64,000 bases of DNA, taken from Melioribacteraceae bacterium (GTDB lineage Bacteria > Bacteroidota > Ignavibacteria > Ignavibacteriales > Melioribacteraceae). A model generated the notes under the pieces. It was not told the DNA's origin. It saw only the letters and a program-made list of their open reading frames with translations, and did no database searches. Position numbers and translations under genes: made by a program. The stretch covers positions 186,001 to 250,000 of the forward strand of contig JAEINS010000003.1 in NCBI GenBank assembly GCA_016342755.1, given 5' to 3'. Positions 4,491 through 36,867 of the stretch are shown here, piece after piece. The first letter of the stretch is position 1. Every line of letters starts with the position of its first letter.

Positions 4491-4563
4491 AAAAATTATT
4501 GTGTTTTAAGTTAGAATATTAGATTTAGAAATCTAATATTTGAAAAATTATACACTAAATTAA

Positions 4564-4652
4564 TTTGTCATTTCGAACCGAGCAAAGCAAGTGTGAGAAA
4601 TCTAAAACAAAAAAAATAGACTTCTCAGTTGTTCCTCCTTCGAAATGACAAA
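4564..4652. repeat. REP-like inverted repeat, copy 2 (perfect 14-bp outer arms)
   Basis: TTTGTCATTTCGAA at 4564-4577 is exactly complementary to TTCGAAATGACAAA at 4639-4652. Inner arms GAGAAATCT and AGACTTCTC also pair with one mismatch. The element sits between the msrA stop and the AlbA_2 promoter region. It is the best preserved copy in the window. Confidence 0.9.
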
Positions 4653-12641: not shown

Positions 12642-13508
12642 ATGAAAAAAGTTACGTTGAAAATAGTATTATTATTATTTTTTTCCAGCTTTATTCTGGC
12701 AGACAATCCTCAAGAATTTAAAATTCTCATAATAAATTCATATCATCAAAATTCTCCATGGACTTCTGAAATACTAAATGGTCTGATGGAAAATCTTGAG
12801 CCGGAATTCCCGGGTTCAGAGATATATATAGAAAATCTGGATACAAAAAGGTTTTTTTCTGAAGAGTACATAAATAATTATGATCAATTACTTACACAAA
12901 AATATAAGTCAGTTGATTTAGATATTATTATTATTTCGGATAATAACGCGCTTGATTATCTTCTCAAAAAGTCATCTTTTGATATTGAAAATATTCCAAA
13001 AGTTTTTTGCGGAATAAATCATTTTGATGATAAAATCTTAGCTGAATACAAACTTATCTACGGTGTTCCTGAAAAACTGGCTATTGAAGAGAATATTGAG
13101 CTAATAAAAAAATTAAATCCGGATTTGCGTGAGCTTACTTTAGTAACTGATATAACCGTTACCGGCAAAGCAATTAAAAAAGATTTTATGCAGGCTATAG
13201 AAAATTACGATTTATCAATTAAATATTTAGACAGCCTTAGACTTAAAGATCTTATTAAAAATTTAGAATCAAAGAGTGATAAAGATGTTGTTATCTATTC
13301 AGTTTTCAATAAAGATATTGATCAAAAATACTATGTAACAAATGTTTTACTCGATTTTTTAAAACTGAAAACAACTGCGCAGTTTTTTTCTTTTAACGAT
13401 TTCAATTTCGGTCATGGAATTATAGGCGGTAAGCTTCTTTATGGATACGGGCAGGGAAAAGCCGCGGCAGAAATTGCCAAAAGGATACTTACCAATAAAA
13501 CAGTATAA
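12642..13508 (+). CDS. Periplasmic ABC_sub_bind sensor domain; 5' half of a frameshifted sensor kinase gene
   Basis: The 288-residue product has a signal peptide (MKKVTLKIVLLLFFSSFILA) and a periplasmic-binding-protein fold of the ABC_sub_bind type: ILIINSYHQNSPWTSEILNG at the start and GKLLYGYGQGKAAAEIAKRI at the end. In related proteins this domain continues into a transmembrane helix and a kinase. Here frame 0 stops at TAA 13506-13508, while the next frame upstream of 13544 reads [20 protein letters not shown], the expected continuation. A one-base deletion near 13498-13508 therefore appears to have split one gene. ATG 12642 is preferred over TTG 12636. As it stands the domain would be released into the periplasm without its kinase. 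Confidence 0.8.
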   Translation: MKKVTLKIVLLLFFSSFILADNPQEFKILIINSYHQNSPWTSEILNGLMENLEPEFPGSEIYIENLDTKRFFSEEYINNYDQLLTQKYKSVDLDIIIISDNNALDYLLKKSSFDIENIPKVFCGINHFDDKILAEYKLIYGVPEKLAIEENIELIKKLNPDLRELTLVTDITVTGKAIKKDFMQAIENYDLSIKYLDSLRLKDLIKNLESKSDKDVVIYSVFNKDIDQKYYVTNVLLDFLKLKTTAQFFSFNDFNFGHGIIGGKLLYGYGQGKAAAEIAKRILTNKTV

Positions 13509-13543
13509 TCCCAAATTATGTTGTTAAAAGTCCCAACAAATAT

Positions 13544-15874
13544 ATGTTTGATTACAGGGAACTTAAAAGACATGATAAACTAAATTATGAGTTGCCGGAT
13601 AATTCAGATATTCAGTTCATCCCGGAATCATTTTGGAATAGATCAAGATTAACCTCATTAATTATCTTTCTTGGGATTGTAATAATATTATTATTAATTA
13701 TAATTCTTGTAAGGAATAAAAACCTCCGTAAAATAAATAAAGAATTAAATATTAAATTTGATGAAAATCTGATTTATAACGAACAGTTAAGAAAGTTTTC
13801 CAGTGCACTTGATCAAAGTGACAATATAATTATAATTACCGATCTGAATGCCCACATAGAATATGCAAATAAAAAATTTGAAACAGTAACAGGTTATGCA
13901 ATTGAAGATGTACTGGGCAAAAATCCCAGATTCTTGAGAGCGGAGAATGCTGATAGAAATATAATTAAAGAACTTTGGCAAAAACTTGGTGAAGGTAAAA
14001 CATGGAGCGGAGAGTTTAAAAATGTAAAAAAAGACGGAACTATTTTTTGGGAATACGCAACTATTTCGCCTATTAGAAATATATCCGGAGATATTACCAG
14101 TTATATTGCTATAAAAGAAGATATAACAGAAAAAAAACAAAAAGAAGAACGATTAAGTCAGTTAAATAGATTATTAGAGTTAAAAGTTAAATGTAATTTA
14201 GCACTTTTACTTTCGGGCAACGAAGAACAATTATGCGAAGAACATTGTAATATTTTTCTGGAAACCGGTGCTTATGAATTAGCTGTAATACAATATTTAG
14301 ATAATGGTAAATTAATTAACACTAAACCTGAATATTCAGCATCTAAATTTGATGTAGAATTAGACATGCTTATGCACAAGTGCCTAAACTGCGGACTATG
14401 TGAAATAGCAAGTGTAATAGAAGATAATTCAACCAGGTATTATCATGCCGAAGACGAGATTCCTAACAAAGACTGTGTACTTAATCTTTATAATCTTAAA
14501 TCCGTAATCTCATTACCAATAATTCATAATGAAAAAACATTTGGCATTTTAACACTTTATACCCGAATCCCAAATAGATTTGACGAAGAAGAAATTCAGG
14601 CAATATATGATATTATTTACATACTAAGTTATGGAATAAACACATTTAGAGAGCAAAAAAGAAAAGAAGAAATTGAAATTGAATTAGCACAGGAAAAAGA
14701 AGAATTATCAATTACTTTAAGTTCTTTAAGCGAAGGAGTTGCTACAATAAGTAATGACGGTTTTATAACACTTTCAAATAAAGCCGCGATAGAAATTTTT
14801 GGCGGCAATTCAAGTTTACTTGGGAAAAATATTTTTGAGGTGCTTAAGTTTGAAAATATAGAAACAGAGTTGGAATTTAAAGAAAAAATTCAAGATGTAA
14901 TAAATGGGAAAGCACCATCGTTTATGCTTAAACATATAAATTTATCGGCCACAAACGGAATTAAAATATTATCAATAAATGGAACTACAATTAGCAAATC
15001 AGGAAGTTCACATCAGGGTCTTGTTCTTATCTTTAGAGATATAACGGAACTTACACGTGCCGAAACTCAATCAGCATTATCGCAAAAACTAGAATCAATT
15101 GGCAGTCTGGCTTCCGGTATTGCCCATGAAATAAATACGCCTTTGCAGTTTGTAAATGATAACACTTCATTTTTGAATGATAGTTTCAAAAACATAATTG
15201 ATATGGTAAATAAAATCAGTTCAAAAGAAGAGGTTCAAGAATTAAAAAATGAGTTGTTTGAACAATATGATTATGAATTTTTATCCGAAGAAATACCACT
15301 GGCAATTTCCCAGTCTCAGGAAGGTTTAACCAGAGTTAGCCAGATTGTTAAAGCAATGAAAGATTTTGCCCATACAAACAATACTCAAAAAAAATTGTGC
15401 GATCTTAACCAGGGAATTGAAGTAACTACAATTATTTCTAGAAATGAGTGGAAATATATAGCTGATTTGGAGCTTAATTTGGGAGAAAATCTTCCAAAAG
15501 TTTATTGCAGTCCGGAAGAAATAAACCAGGTAATTCTTAATATGATTGTTAACTCGGCTCATGCAATTGAAGAAAAAATGGGATCTGATTCAGATGAAAA
15601 AGGTAAAATACAAATTTCAACTTATACAGACGAAACTAATTTTATAATTGAAATTAAGGATAATGGTATTGGAATTGAGAAAGATAAAATTTCAAAAATA
15701 TTTGATCCGTTTTTTACAACAAAAGAAGTTGGCAAAGGAACAGGGCAAGGGTTAGCAATTACTCACGAGATAATAATAAATAAGCATTCAGGTGAGCTTT
15801 TAGTCGATTCTACTTATGGACAAGGAACAACAATTAAAATAATAATACCTATAGGTCATCATGAAGAAAGTTAA
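13544..15874 (+). CDS. PAS-GAF-PAS histidine kinase; 3' part of the split sensor gene
   Basis: The 776-residue product has one membrane helix (about 36-59), a PAS/PAC domain (about 80-200, with [19 protein letters not shown]), a GAF-like domain with a [11 protein letters not shown] cysteine cluster (about 205-365), a second PAS (about 390-505), then HisKA and HATPase_c. The phospho-acceptor is H528 in [13 protein letters not shown]-binding boxes are [21 protein letters not shown] and [11 protein letters not shown] 13544 has no Shine-Dalgarno and lies inside the continuous family homology, so it is probably not an original start. Without repair the protein lacks its periplasmic sensor. Its stop overlaps the start of the REC-HDOD gene by 14 bases, so the two form one operon and one pathway. 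Confidence 0.85.
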
Positions 15875-17039
15875 AATTTTATTCGTAGATGATGATGCCA
15901 ATATTATAAACGGGCTCAAAAGGATGTTATTCCCAATGAGAAAAGAATGGGGACAATATTTTTGTACTAGCGGTGAAGAGGCATTAAAAATAGTTGAAAA
16001 TGAAAATGTTGATATTATTGTTACTGATATGAGAATGCCTAAAATGAACGGAGTACAATTATTAGAAAAGGTTAGAGAAAAATTCCCCAATGTAATAAGG
16101 ATAATATTATCCGGACAAGCGGATGATGAAATGGCACTAAAATCTATTTCCGTAGCACATCAGTTTATCAGCAAACCATGTGTCCCGGAAGAACTGAAAG
16201 AAGTAATAAAAAATTCCTCAGACTTAAAAAGTCATCTTCACGATAATAAAAATATTCAAAGTCTGGTAGCAGGTGTTGATCAGCTGCCGGTTCTGCCCGA
16301 TATTTATTTAGAAATTGAAAAAGAGTTTAATAAAGAGGAAAGATCATTAAATAAGATTGGAGCAATAGTATCAAAAAATCCCTCGCTTACCGCTAAAATA
16401 TTGAAGATCGTTAACTCAGCCTTTTTTGGTTTACCTAAAAATATTTCAAATCCCATAGAGGCGGTTAATTATTTGGGTTTAGGAATTATTAAATCGCTTG
16501 TATTATATATACCCTTATTTGAAGGAGTTGACGCAGCCAGCAATGTTAGAGCTTCTATGACTGATTTACTTAACCATTGTCTTCATACAGCAAACTATTC
16601 TCTTGATCTGCATAAAAAGCTGGAGCTGCCAAATAACATGAAAGACGATCTCTATATTGCCTCACTGCTGCACGATGTTGGAAAACTTGTAATAATGAAA
16701 AATAAAGAAGTTTATGAGCAGATTGAGACAGTTATTAAAAAAGAAAAATTAAAATACCATGATGTTGAAAATGAATTACTTGGAACCTCGCATGCCGAAA
16801 TCGGGGCCTATTTACTTGGGATATGGGGTATTCCAAATAAAATAATAGAAGTAATAATGAATCATCACAAACTGGAAAAACAAACTGATAACAGTTTTGA
16901 TTTGAGCAATTTAGTTTATATTTCTAATTTTTCTCAATATTTATCCCCTCAATTGAGAACCGAATTGGAAAATTATTTATATTCGAATAAAGATGAAATT
17001 TCTCTAAAAACAAAAATTGGAGAACTGCAAAATGGATAA
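15861..17039 (+). CDS. Response regulator with HDOD output domain
   Basis: The 392-residue protein has an N-terminal receiver (DDD acid pocket, phospho-Asp in VDIIVTDMRMP, Lys in ISKPC) and an HDOD domain from about residue 135. The HDOD part shows LPVLPDIYLEIE, SLTAKILKIVNSAFFGLP, ASLLHDVGKLVIM and MNHHKLE. HDOD domains are HD-fold relatives used in signalling scaffolds, usually without a proven enzymatic role. This architecture is common in regulators of motility and cyclic-di-GMP responses. Start and stop overlap both neighbours (14 bases with the kinase, 8 with the next gene), which supports translational coupling. Confidence 0.9.
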   Translation: MKKVKILFVDDDANIINGLKRMLFPMRKEWGQYFCTSGEEALKIVENENVDIIVTDMRMPKMNGVQLLEKVREKFPNVIRIILSGQADDEMALKSISVAHQFISKPCVPEELKEVIKNSSDLKSHLHDNKNIQSLVAGVDQLPVLPDIYLEIEKEFNKEERSLNKIGAIVSKNPSLTAKILKIVNSAFFGLPKNISNPIEAVNYLGLGIIKSLVLYIPLFEGVDAASNVRASMTDLLNHCLHTANYSLDLHKKLELPNNMKDDLYIASLLHDVGKLVIMKNKEVYEQIETVIKKEKLKYHDVENELLGTSHAEIGAYLLGIWGIPNKIIEVIMNHHKLEKQTDNSFDLSNLVYISNFSQYLSPQLRTELENYLYSNKDEISLKTKIGELQNG

Positions 17040-18180
17040 AGTTCTATTTGTAGATGATGACCAGAATATTTTGAATGCATACCGAAGAAATCTTCGTGGA
17101 AATTTTGATCTTACTGTAGCATTAGGTCCGATTGAGGCTTTAAAAATCGTGAGAGAAAAAGGTCCATTTGCAGTAGTTATTTCAGATTTTAAAATGCCTG
17201 TAATGAATGGAATAGAATTATTAAGTAAAATAAAAAATATTAATCCCGATACGGTAAGAATAATTTTAACAGGTCATGCAAATCTGGAAACCGCAATTTC
17301 AGCCGTAAACGAGGGAAATATATTCCGGTTTTTAACTAAGCCATGTCAGAAAGAACAGCTTTTAAAAGTCCTTTACGATGGTACAAGACAATACCAGTTA
17401 ATAAATAATGAAAAAGAATTACTGGACAAAACCCTAAAAGGAACAATAAAAGTACTTCTGGATATATTATCAATAGTAAACCCGTCAGCATTCAGTAAAG
17501 CGGCAAGAATTAGAAATCTTGCTGTACAGATTGGTAAAAGGATGAAACTAAAGGAACAATGGATAATAGAAATTTCGGCTCTTCTATCGCAAATAGGCTG
17601 TATTGGTGTTCCGGGTGAGATAATTGAAAAAATAAATCAGGGGCACAAACTTACGGAAAATGAAAAAGAGATCTTTTATTCACATCCTAATATTGGCATA
17701 AAACTACTCGAAAAAATACCCAGATTAGATGAAGTAAAAAAAGCTATTGAATTCCAAAACATTAGATATGACGGTTCCGGAGGAAAAGAAAAAGACTATA
17801 TTTCCGGGGATTCAATTCCATTGATGGCTAGAATGTTAAAAGTAATTAATGATTATGACATTTATTCCAGATACTCGAAAGAAAATGCCCGTATCCTGGA
17901 AATAATGAACAAAGACGTAGGTGCATATGACACGGAAATACTGCTTTCTTTAGAAGCTGTTGCTAATGGTCTGGCCGATGAATTAGAACTAAAATCAGTT
18001 TTTGTTACTGAATTAAAAGTAGGAATGATGGCAGCCGAAAATATTAAAGATGAGAGCGGTAAATTATTAATTTCAAAAGATACAGAAATATCATCAGCTA
18101 TTATTTTCAGGTTAAACAATTATTCAAAGATAAATAAAATTGTAGAACCAATAAAAGTATTAAGCTTAAAGGATAAATAA
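17032..18180 (+). CDS. Response regulator with degenerate HD-GYP domain
   Basis: The 382-residue protein has a receiver domain (VLFVDDDQNIL; phospho-Asp in VVISDFKMPVMNG; LTKPC) and an HD-GYP-like domain from about residue 140. The active sites are altered: the usual LLHDIGKIGIP reads LLSQIGCIGVP, so the metal-binding His-Asp pair is Ser-Gln, and the HH...GxGYP region reads EFQNIRYDGSGG. Cyclic-di-GMP phosphodiesterase activity is therefore unlikely; a binding or scaffold role is more plausible. The C-terminus has an extra about 60 residues ending in a small beta domain. ATG 17032 is chosen over upstream codons because MDKVLFVDDDQ begins the receiver and overlaps the previous stop as ATGGATAA. 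Confidence 0.88.
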   Translation: MDKVLFVDDDQNILNAYRRNLRGNFDLTVALGPIEALKIVREKGPFAVVISDFKMPVMNGIELLSKIKNINPDTVRIILTGHANLETAISAVNEGNIFRFLTKPCQKEQLLKVLYDGTRQYQLINNEKELLDKTLKGTIKVLLDILSIVNPSAFSKAARIRNLAVQIGKRMKLKEQWIIEISALLSQIGCIGVPGEIIEKINQGHKLTENEKEIFYSHPNIGIKLLEKIPRLDEVKKAIEFQNIRYDGSGGKEKDYISGDSIPLMARMLKVINDYDIYSRYSKENARILEIMNKDVGAYDTEILLSLEAVANGLADELELKSVFVTELKVGMMAAENIKDESGKLLISKDTEISSAIIFRLNNYSKINKIVEPIKVLSLKDK

Positions 18181-33491: not shown

Positions 33492-35261
33492 TTAAAGTTC
33501 AATTCTAACAATTGTTCCGTTGGGTTTATTATTTGAAATAACAATTTTTCCATTGTGGGCATCTACAATATTCTTAACTATAGCTAACCCAAGACCGCTT
33601 CCGCTCGATTTTGTTGTATAAAAAGGCTGAAATATCTTACTCAGACTTGCCTTATCAATTCCCAAACCCTGATCCATAATTTCAAAAATCAGCTTATTTG
33701 TTTTTTTAAGTGTAATTGTAATTTCAGAATTCTTTGGAGCAAAGTATATCGCGTTAATAAGCAGGTTACTAAATAATTCTTCAATAAGATTCTGATCACA
33801 ATCATAGTGTATAGAATCTTCAATTAAATTTTTTATAAAAATATTTTTCTCTTCAACTGAAATTTTGTTTTCAAATAAAACTCTATTTAATAATTTTGAT
33901 AAATCAGCCGTAGCTATTTCCAAAGAAGGTTTTCTATAAAACCGTTTGAAATTTAGAAGAAGCTTATCTAATGAGTTTACTGCAAGTTTCATTTCCATGA
34001 GATATAGCTTAGAAGTATCATTTAAGTCCTCAAGAGATTCCATATTCTGTATCCAGATATGTATGCCTCCAATTTTATTTTGCAGTTCGTGTGTTACCTT
34101 TGCAACAGTCTCCCCAATTAAAGCAAGTCGCTGAGCTTCCGAAAGAGCCGATTGAGCTTTGAGCAAATCTGTTATCTTTTTTTGAAGTTCACTATTAACA
34201 TCACTAAGCTGATTATAGCTTTGATCAAGGTTAAAAACCATGTCATTAAATGTGTTAATTAAAAGTCCAAGTTCATCATGCCTTTTTAAATCTATTTTTT
34301 GAGAAAAATCTCCTTGCGAAACGTACCCGGCAACTTTTGTAACTTTTTTAAGATTACCTATAAACTGATTTGTTAAGTATAGAATTACCAAAACAAATAT
34401 ACTATAAATTAAGAATGTATAGATTAGAGTATTTATTGCAAATGAATCAAGCTTTAACATCGACCCATTAAAATCGATAGATACTTTTATAAAAACTTTA
34501 ATTGAGCTTAAATACCACCACTTTAAAACTTTATTACCAGGCAGTACTTCGGAATACTGTTCTAACTTTTTAGCTGATTTAAATTCCTCTTTGTTAGAAA
34601 TATCCTTGTTTATTAAGGATTTATCTGTGGCATTTAATATTACCCCATTCCAATTAACAAATAGCAGTTCATCTAGTTCTAATTCGGGAATTTGCGCTAA
34701 TATTTTCCCTAAATAATCTGAAGTATTTATTATTCCCAAAAGCCCAATTTCAGTATCTTTGCTGAAAGCAGCATAATTAATTTCCCTCCCAGTGGTATCT
34801 ATTTGCATTCTTATCTTTTTTTGATTAGGATTTTTATTATCACAAAAAGCAGATAAATATTTTTCTTTGGGTTCAACATTTTTTTCATTAAATATTTCAC
34901 CGTTAAATGCCCTTTGTTTACTGAAGATAATCACTGAATCAGATTTTGCTTCACAAAAACCGATCTTTGAATAATGCGCTGGATATGCTAAAAGAAAATC
35001 AGAGATTATCTTAGAATAATTTTCACTATCCTGATTAACCAGATTATAAAGCCCTAATATTTCATTTTCGTAATTGTATAATTCACTTTCATTTTTTTTG
35101 TTAATTATCCCGGAGTAATAATCAATCCTTTCAAAAGCATTTTTTCTTAAGTACGATTTACCTTCAAAATATATAAACAGAATAAGAACTAATATTGTTA
35201 CAAGAACAAATGTGGAGAAAAAAAATACAATCTTAGCTCCCAATTTCTTTTTTAGCAACAT
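33492..35261 (-). CDS. Membrane sensor histidine kinase with HAMP domain
   Basis: The 589-residue kinase has a membrane helix at about 9-29, a periplasmic region of about 240 residues consistent with a Cache-like sensor (not proven), a second helix at about 273-295, HAMP (VAGYVSQGDFSQKIDLKRHD), a HisKA-like helix with His in KVTHELQNKIGGIHIW, and HATPase_c (NLLINAIYFAP, DQGLGI, SGSGLGLAIV). Its start lies inside the end of the binding-protein gene (29-base overlap) and it is 16 bases ahead of the NtrC-type regulator. The three genes appear to form one sensory unit. Confidence 0.92.
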   Translation of the reverse strand: MLLKKKLGAKIVFFFSTFVLVTILVLILFIYFEGKSYLRKNAFERIDYYSGIINKKNESELYNYENEILGLYNLVNQDSENYSKIISDFLLAYPAHYSKIGFCEAKSDSVIIFSKQRAFNGEIFNEKNVEPKEKYLSAFCDNKNPNQKKIRMQIDTTGREINYAAFSKDTEIGLLGIINTSDYLGKILAQIPELELDELLFVNWNGVILNATDKSLINKDISNKEEFKSAKKLEQYSEVLPGNKVLKWWYLSSIKVFIKVSIDFNGSMLKLDSFAINTLIYTFLIYSIFVLVILYLTNQFIGNLKKVTKVAGYVSQGDFSQKIDLKRHDELGLLINTFNDMVFNLDQSYNQLSDVNSELQKKITDLLKAQSALSEAQRLALIGETVAKVTHELQNKIGGIHIWIQNMESLEDLNDTSKLYLMEMKLAVNSLDKLLLNFKRFYRKPSLEIATADLSKLLNRVLFENKISVEEKNIFIKNLIEDSIHYDCDQNLIEELFSNLLINAIYFAPKNSEITITLKKTNKLIFEIMDQGLGIDKASLSKIFQPFYTTKSSGSGLGLAIVKNIVDAHNGKIVISNNKPNGTIVRIEL

Positions 35262-36867
35262 AATTATCGTCTATCCATATTGTTCTAAAATCGGGGATAT
35301 TATATTTCATTTTAAAATCTTTCACATATTTTGGAAAAACATAAATATTCTGAGTCGAATATGAAATCGGAATAAAGGCACCTTCATTTTTTAATATTTT
35401 TTCTAATTCAAGACAAAGCTCATTTCGTTTAGCTACATTATTTTCCAGCATCACGAGTCTAAATATTTTATCATATTTATTGTTCTTAAAATTACAAAGG
35501 TTTACATATTTATCGCTGCCAGAATAAAAGAGCGAATAATATTCCTCAACGTCCGGGAACGACGGTGTCATCGATACTCTAAATATTTCAGGTTTATTAT
35601 TAACAATATGATGATAATATTTTGACGCAAGAATATTTCCGTTAACTGTAATATTTCTTGATTTTAATTTTGAAACTAAACTGTCATAACTGATTGTCCT
35701 TATTGATGAACAAACTTCAACATCGCCAGTTATATTCTCACTTATCATTGATTCAGCATAAACATTATCCATATCAGAATCCAAATTATTTAACAAATAT
35801 TTTGGAACCAGCGATTTAGACGGTGTAAAATTTTGCAATGAGTTTTCATCAAAAACAACGGGATCATAATCAGCCGCAATTGCCCTTCGTAAATTTTTAT
35901 GTTCATAAAGTGAAGAGTTTTTATCGAAAGAAAACTCCCAAAATCTAATATGCGGGAAACCATTATTTTTTCTCGTTTCAAATTTATTATCAAAATCTTT
36001 GTTTGTTTTTAATTCGGATAAAATTGACAAGTTGGTTAAATACAGATCATTATTGCCTTTTAACAGTTCAGGCAATAGCTTTGAACTGTTTAATACCAGC
36101 GTAAACTTTATATTTTTTAGTAATGGAAATCTCACACCGTTTTTTGATTTACACCAATATTTTCTGTTTGCTGACAAATGGATTTCATCTAGATGATTCC
36201 AGATTGACAATCTAAATGGGCCAGTTCCTACGGGGTTTTTATAAAACTGATCTCCATAATATTTAACCGCTTCCTTAGGAATTATAAATGCTGAAGGCGT
36301 TGCCAGCAACTTTAAAAAAGTTGAGTATGAATCTGTCAGCACAATTTCAATTTCATTTTCCGATATTCTTCGCAGCCCGGAAATATGTTCTCTTTCAGAA
36401 TTATAGTATTCTCTTTGCCCAATTATTTTACCATTAAATATTCCTCCAAATACATTCCCGGAACTTTTCTTCAACATTCTGTTAAACGAATAGATTACAT
36501 CATCTATATCTAACAACCGCCCTTTCCCATTGGGGAAACAAGGGTTATCATGAAAATATATACTGTCTCTTATCTTAAACGTAAATCTTTTTCCATTATC
36601 AAATACTTGCCAGCTTTCAGCTATTAGTGCTTCTAAAGAATCATGATCTTCGGTGTACCCTACTAATCCTTCATAAATAGCGGATACAACCTGCCAGTCA
36701 TTTCTATAAAGAATTTTTACAGGATCCAGCGTCTCAACCGGATCATTAATACTAATATTTAAACTACCTGACGGGTAATTGTTCTTTTGCGGTATTTTGT
36801 TTGGTTGGTTACACGCACTGATAATAAAAATGATTGTACATGAAAATAATAAAAACCTATGTTTCAT
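35233..36867 (-). CDS. SBP_bac_5 (oligopeptide-binding type) lipoprotein
   Basis: The 544-residue protein is a lipoprotein: MKHRFLLFSCTIIFIISAC with lipobox ISAC. Family 5 solute-binding motifs follow: DPVETLDPVKILYRNDWQVV, EGLVGYTEDHDSLEALIAES, FTFKIRDSIYFHD, and VGTGPFRLSIW. Such proteins bind peptides or other ligands for ABC importers. No permease or ATPase genes of the Opp/Dpp type are present, and instead it overlaps a sensor kinase gene by 29 bases. It may therefore act as a ligand-recognising partner of the kinase, or be an orphan importer component. Start ATG 36867; the gap of 189 bases upstream holds the lipA terminator. Confidence 0.9.
   Translation of the reverse strand: MKHRFLLFSCTIIFIISACNQPNKIPQKNNYPSGSLNISINDPVETLDPVKILYRNDWQVVSAIYEGLVGYTEDHDSLEALIAESWQVFDNGKRFTFKIRDSIYFHDNPCFPNGKGRLLDIDDVIYSFNRMLKKSSGNVFGGIFNGKIIGQREYYNSEREHISGLRRISENEIEIVLTDSYSTFLKLLATPSAFIIPKEAVKYYGDQFYKNPVGTGPFRLSIWNHLDEIHLSANRKYWCKSKNGVRFPLLKNIKFTLVLNSSKLLPELLKGNNDLYLTNLSILSELKTNKDFDNKFETRKNNGFPHIRFWEFSFDKNSSLYEHKNLRRAIAADYDPVVFDENSLQNFTPSKSLVPKYLLNNLDSDMDNVYAESMISENITGDVEVCSSIRTISYDSLVSKLKSRNITVNGNILASKYYHHIVNNKPEIFRVSMTPSFPDVEEYYSLFYSGSDKYVNLCNFKNNKYDKIFRLVMLENNVAKRNELCLELEKILKNEGAFIPISYSTQNIYVFPKYVKDFKMKYNIPDFRTIWIDDNYVAKKEIGS

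Follow-up and report, generated by a model that had tools for sequence, protein, structure and literature searches.

Genes and reading frames at the break

We analysed a window of 64,000 nt, i.e. positions 186,001-250,000 on the forward strand of contig JAEINS010000003.1, from the assembly GCA_016342755.1 of a Melioribacteraceae bacterium. Within this window, two open reading frames in different registers encode the parts of a sensor histidine kinase and are followed by genes for two response regulators (Table 1). The HDOD response regulator gene starts 14 nt inside the end of the kinase frame, and the gene of the HD-GYP-type response regulator, the ORF of which is listed from TTG 17017, overlaps the HDOD response regulator gene.

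Table 1. Features of the split sensor kinase locus and of the adjacent response regulator genes (positions in the window).
Feature	Position	Strand	Evidence
5' fragment: signal peptide and ABC_sub_bind-like sensor domain, 288 aa	12642..13508	+	ORF; Pfam PF04392; paralogue identity
Break: spacer of 7 codons shortened by about 4 nt (most likely), no slippery heptamer	13490..13510	+	Frame table, spacer counts
Out-of-frame sensor-domain end joined to the kinase frame	13508..13660	+	BLASTP to paralogue tail; profile 310-349
3' fragment: membrane helix, PAS, GAF, PAS, histidine kinase, 776 aa	13544..15874	+	ORF; Pfam
Response regulator with HDOD domain	15861..17039	+	Pfam Response_reg E 7e-22, HDOD E 1.4e-48
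Response regulator with HD-GYP-type (HD_5) domain	17029..18180	+	Pfam Response_reg E 3e-19, HD_5 E 1.9e-31

According to the frame table, the frame-0 ORF opening with ATG 12642 is terminated by TAA at 13506-13508, its C-terminal residues being GKAAAEIAKRILTNKTV. A sequence-only reading of this DNA had located the stop correctly but had placed it right after GKAAAEIAKRIL, whereas five residues, TNKTV, intervene. The -1 frame carries a TAA at 13496-13498 and is open from 13499 to 15874 across the 0-frame stop, in agreement with the claim of the same reading that it runs without a stop into a kinase of 776 residues. Continuing as ATC (13508) CCA AAT TAT GTT GTT AAA AGT CCC AAC AAA TAT ATG (13544), it encodes the C-terminal part that the frame-0 sensor domain lacks, then a single membrane helix, followed by PAS, GAF and PAS domains and the histidine kinase ATPase. 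Near the break, the only start codons (ATG, GTG or TTG) in the kinase frame are ATG 13544, which is the first, and TTG 13592, and the longest homopolymer is a run of four A.

The sensor fragment matches the Pfam family ABC_sub_bind (PF04392) with an E-value of 2.8e-05, just under the curated cut-off, and shows 32-35% identity to fused paralogues of the same genome which do pass this cut-off, so that an ABC_sub_bind-like N-terminal periplasmic domain is present. In the kinase fragment we found matches to PAS_9 (E 7e-25), HATPase_c (E 3e-21) and GAF; a kinase core of PAS, H-box and HATPase_c is thus present, with H-box and HATPase_c both intact. Pfam reports no HisKA match in this fragment, the H-box nonetheless being found in the sequence, and the HisKA scores of the closest relatives are also weak. 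Sensor and kinase do not lie together in one open reading frame due to TAA 13506 and the -1 shift, which identifies the window gene as a disrupted copy rather than an intact member of the family.

Fused homologues and the size of the lesion

The genome itself encodes two fused single-frame paralogues of 767 aa (G000:C48) and 654 aa (G000:C3), and the fused copies of related genomes are open over 747, 609, 806, 634 and 650 aa. The match of the window gene to a profile built from five intact copies is divided between both frames, with profile positions 13-312 found in frame 0 and positions 310-349 in that of the kinase, showing that the continuation in the second frame exceeds chance. In BLASTP, the beginning of the -1 frame matches the sensor tail of a paralogue with 40% identity over 42 residues (E 7e-8). 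Searching genome contigs with the paralogue alignment resulted in 271 matches, the best 80 of which were kept, corresponding to 79 loci from Desulfobacterota, Bacteroidota, Spirochaetes, Nitrospirae, Campylobacterota, Firmicutes, Fermentibacteria and others; the same kind of search with the window sensor alone as a single-protein query found no relative. The sensor tail stays in frame through the junction in all 78 readable loci, the 79th being masked there, and neither these nor the fused relatives include a homologue split at the break point of the window gene. Aligning homologues that keep both parts in one protein was the check proposed by the sequence-only reading; both parts share a frame in them and separate-gene homologues at this point were not found. 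Its view of one ancestral gene having been disrupted is well supported by the fusions present within this genome, among its relatives and in several phyla.

The homologues also differ from each other in what follows the sensor. Two of them (L102, L108) have GGDEF domains downstream of the sensor, with the sensor tail still in frame. Four short homologues of 470-513 aa from Spirochaetales and Desulfobacula (L056, L059, L067, L080), the sensor tail again being in frame, have no kinase; sensor and membrane helix are followed by a segment resembling a coiled coil and by a Cys-rich tail that is conserved among them (IPICSHCK...GYW...VEQYI...SHGICPDC). Frame breaks at other sites occur in two of the 79 homologues. 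In a Desulfobacteraceae MAG (L101, around 4540-4593), the break is located just upstream of the kinase H-box, AGGIAHDLNN lying in another frame, and in the ABC_sub_bind sensor kinase of Marinifilum fragile JCM 15579 (L111, 1241-1313) it directly follows the membrane helix, the kinase being carried on in a different frame.

The homologues allow the size of the lesion to be estimated. Between the residues IL at the end of the long helix and IP at the start of the last strand, the spacer is 7 codons long in 76 of the 78 homologues (71 counted by script and five by eye from printed sequences) and 8 codons long in the other two, both from Propionispira, while a 6-codon spacer occurs in 0 of 78. The window gene has 17 nt between the same landmarks. 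Compared with the 7-codon norm, this makes a net loss of 4 nt most likely as the simplest account of the aligned sequences, and the single-base deletion proposed earlier is not borne out. A loss of 1 nt is possible if the ancestral spacer in the lineage of the window gene differed, having the 6 codons that we did not observe among the relatives searched, which include no congener.

Consequences for the sensor fold and the kinase

The frame-0 stop lies within the sensor fold, leaving the last approximately 45 residues, including the final strand and helix, out of frame. When the intact paralogue L002 is modelled by AlphaFold (pLDDT 92), a strand (318-322) and a helix (323-328) lie beyond the break point, their high pLDDT of 97-98 showing that both are part of the folded domain. 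The solved relatives 6hni, 3lft and 3lkv have the same fold as the sensor domain, and for 6hni the alignment extends through the sensor tail. The earlier suggestion that the lesion leaves a periplasmic sensor thus holds for the presence of the sensor part, but not for its completeness, as the last strand and helix are cut off, and the fragment is not a complete free-standing binding protein as needed for a two-gene sensor. With the end of its fold missing, the frame-0 product is probably unstable or inactive, as judged from the modelled paralogue.

For the kinase, ATG 13544 is located 36 nt downstream of the frame-0 stop and lacks a Shine-Dalgarno sequence, as had been stated before. This carries little weight since only 13 of 36 window genes have a recognisable one, compared with 10% of random positions. 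The kinase fragment retains the membrane helix, the H-box and the ATPase domain. In relatives, the same kinase core is followed by an HDOD gene and often by further response regulator genes, but it is joined to other inputs or has no periplasmic domain; two sensor-less kinases share the HDOD partner, one of 578 aa with a GAF-like region, PAS and kinase (L014) and one of 479 aa with membrane helix, PAS and kinase (L015). A histidine kinase gene followed by that of an HDOD response regulator, and often by one more response regulator gene, recurs as a conserved cassette, at 13544-18180 in the window and in G006, G007, G008, G011, G016 and G037, the kinase inputs varying among the cassette-bearing relatives. 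The sensor-less relatives with the same core show that the cassette can exist without the ABC_sub_bind sensor. By analogy to these, a kinase product made by reinitiation may still signal. The earlier description of the kinase as uncoupled is plausible.

Origin of the split and relation to known systems

We conclude, with a probability of roughly 0.77, that 12642-15874 is one sensor histidine kinase gene broken by a small, recent and lineage-specific deletion, most likely of net 4 nt. In this reading, the ancestral product began with an ABC_sub_bind-type domain for ligand binding in the periplasm, followed by a membrane helix, a PAS-GAF-PAS region and the kinase core, the deletion having occurred in the loop separating the last long helix of the sensor domain from its last strand. 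Translation from ATG 12642 would halt at 13506, and the resulting sensor would lack its C-terminal strand and helix, while reinitiation at ATG 13544 may still allow translation of the kinase as well as of the overlapping response regulator genes (HDOD and HD-GYP). The outcome would be a membrane-anchored kinase without periplasmic input, a layout that appears to be natural in relatives.

An assembly or sequencing error, the gene being intact in the organism, is an unlikely explanation, although both halves look undamaged, including the 12 out-of-frame codons between the stop and ATG 13544. The absence of decay in these codons is compatible with a recent mutation as well as with an assembly error. 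Against an error speak the net change of 4 nt at a site where no nearby homopolymer exceeds A4, the lack of any other evident frame break in those window ORFs that match a Pfam family (four ORFs match none) and the absence of internal stops among the own-genome matches listed. A real recent mutation is the likelier of the two.

It is very improbable that the split is a functional two-gene arrangement in which a secreted sensor acts in trans with a separate membrane kinase. The same genome does have a free-standing ABC_sub_bind protein beside a kinase, and relatives have the sensor-less kinases with the same HDOD partner described above, but the fold of the sensor fragment is missing its end, which the free-standing protein and the PDB relatives retain, the N-terminus of the kinase begins in the middle of the sensor domain and no homologue is divided at this point. 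The free-standing protein (L004, 279-2418 in C40) is complete with 321 aa and encoded directly 3' of a histidine kinase gene, thus representing a natural two-gene layout. A conserved split was rejected, since homologues are undivided here and the broken copies L101 and L111 break elsewhere. Most of the strand and helix that the sensor has lost is present in the N-terminal residues of the kinase fragment, and one might imagine a retained and functional split by fragment complementation, in which the truncated secreted sensor would reassociate with these residues to form a two-chain receptor via reinitiation at ATG 13544; we regard this as a highly speculative scenario with only a slim chance of being correct. 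Programmed -1 frameshifting yielding a full-length protein would be permitted by the -1 frame being open across the 0-frame stop, but judged from the codons at the break it appears excluded for practical purposes, as the preceding -1-frame stop leaves just AAA ACA GTA for a slip, none of which re-pairs at -1, a slippery heptamer is absent from this interval and homologues require no shift. Polymerase slippage was rejected, there being no run beyond four bases.

A recent deletion within a single ancestral gene, if real, adds one more recently broken sensor kinase and suggests that the kinase/HDOD/HD-GYP cassette could be cut off from its ligand input by a single event and still retain its output. 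Small indels splitting genes are common in bacteria, and the window gene represents an ordinary frameshift, probably a recent one, in a known sensor-kinase family and no new kind of system; the split gene leaves the knowledge of the ABC_sub_bind and sensor-kinase families unchanged. For annotation, the ORF of 776 aa should not be taken for a naturally sensor-less kinase.

Our literature search found no paper pairing ABC_sub_bind with a histidine kinase. The window gene resembles the ABC_sub_bind (PF04392) sensor histidine kinases among its homologues in domain order, membrane helix, PAS and kinase, and shares with them the sensor motifs SYHQ, SDNNAL, VFCGIN and SPN-YMFDY; unlike in these, its frame is broken within the sensor domain. 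In XylFII-LytS (PDB 5xsj, a fold match to the sensor), a binding-protein fold and a kinase are separate products as in the window, but binding proteins of this type are complete whereas the window sensor is truncated. Another region of the window, 33492-36867 on the - strand, encodes a HAMP histidine kinase whose gene overlaps at its start with that of an SBP_bac_5 binding protein; a sigma-54 response regulator comes next. The lesion itself has a close parallel in the interrupted coding sequences (ICDS) of bacterial genomes, in which, as in the window gene, a small indel results in two ORFs, only host and gene being different; for M. tuberculosis and M. bovis, their share of all coding sequences is about 2% (PMC2277376).
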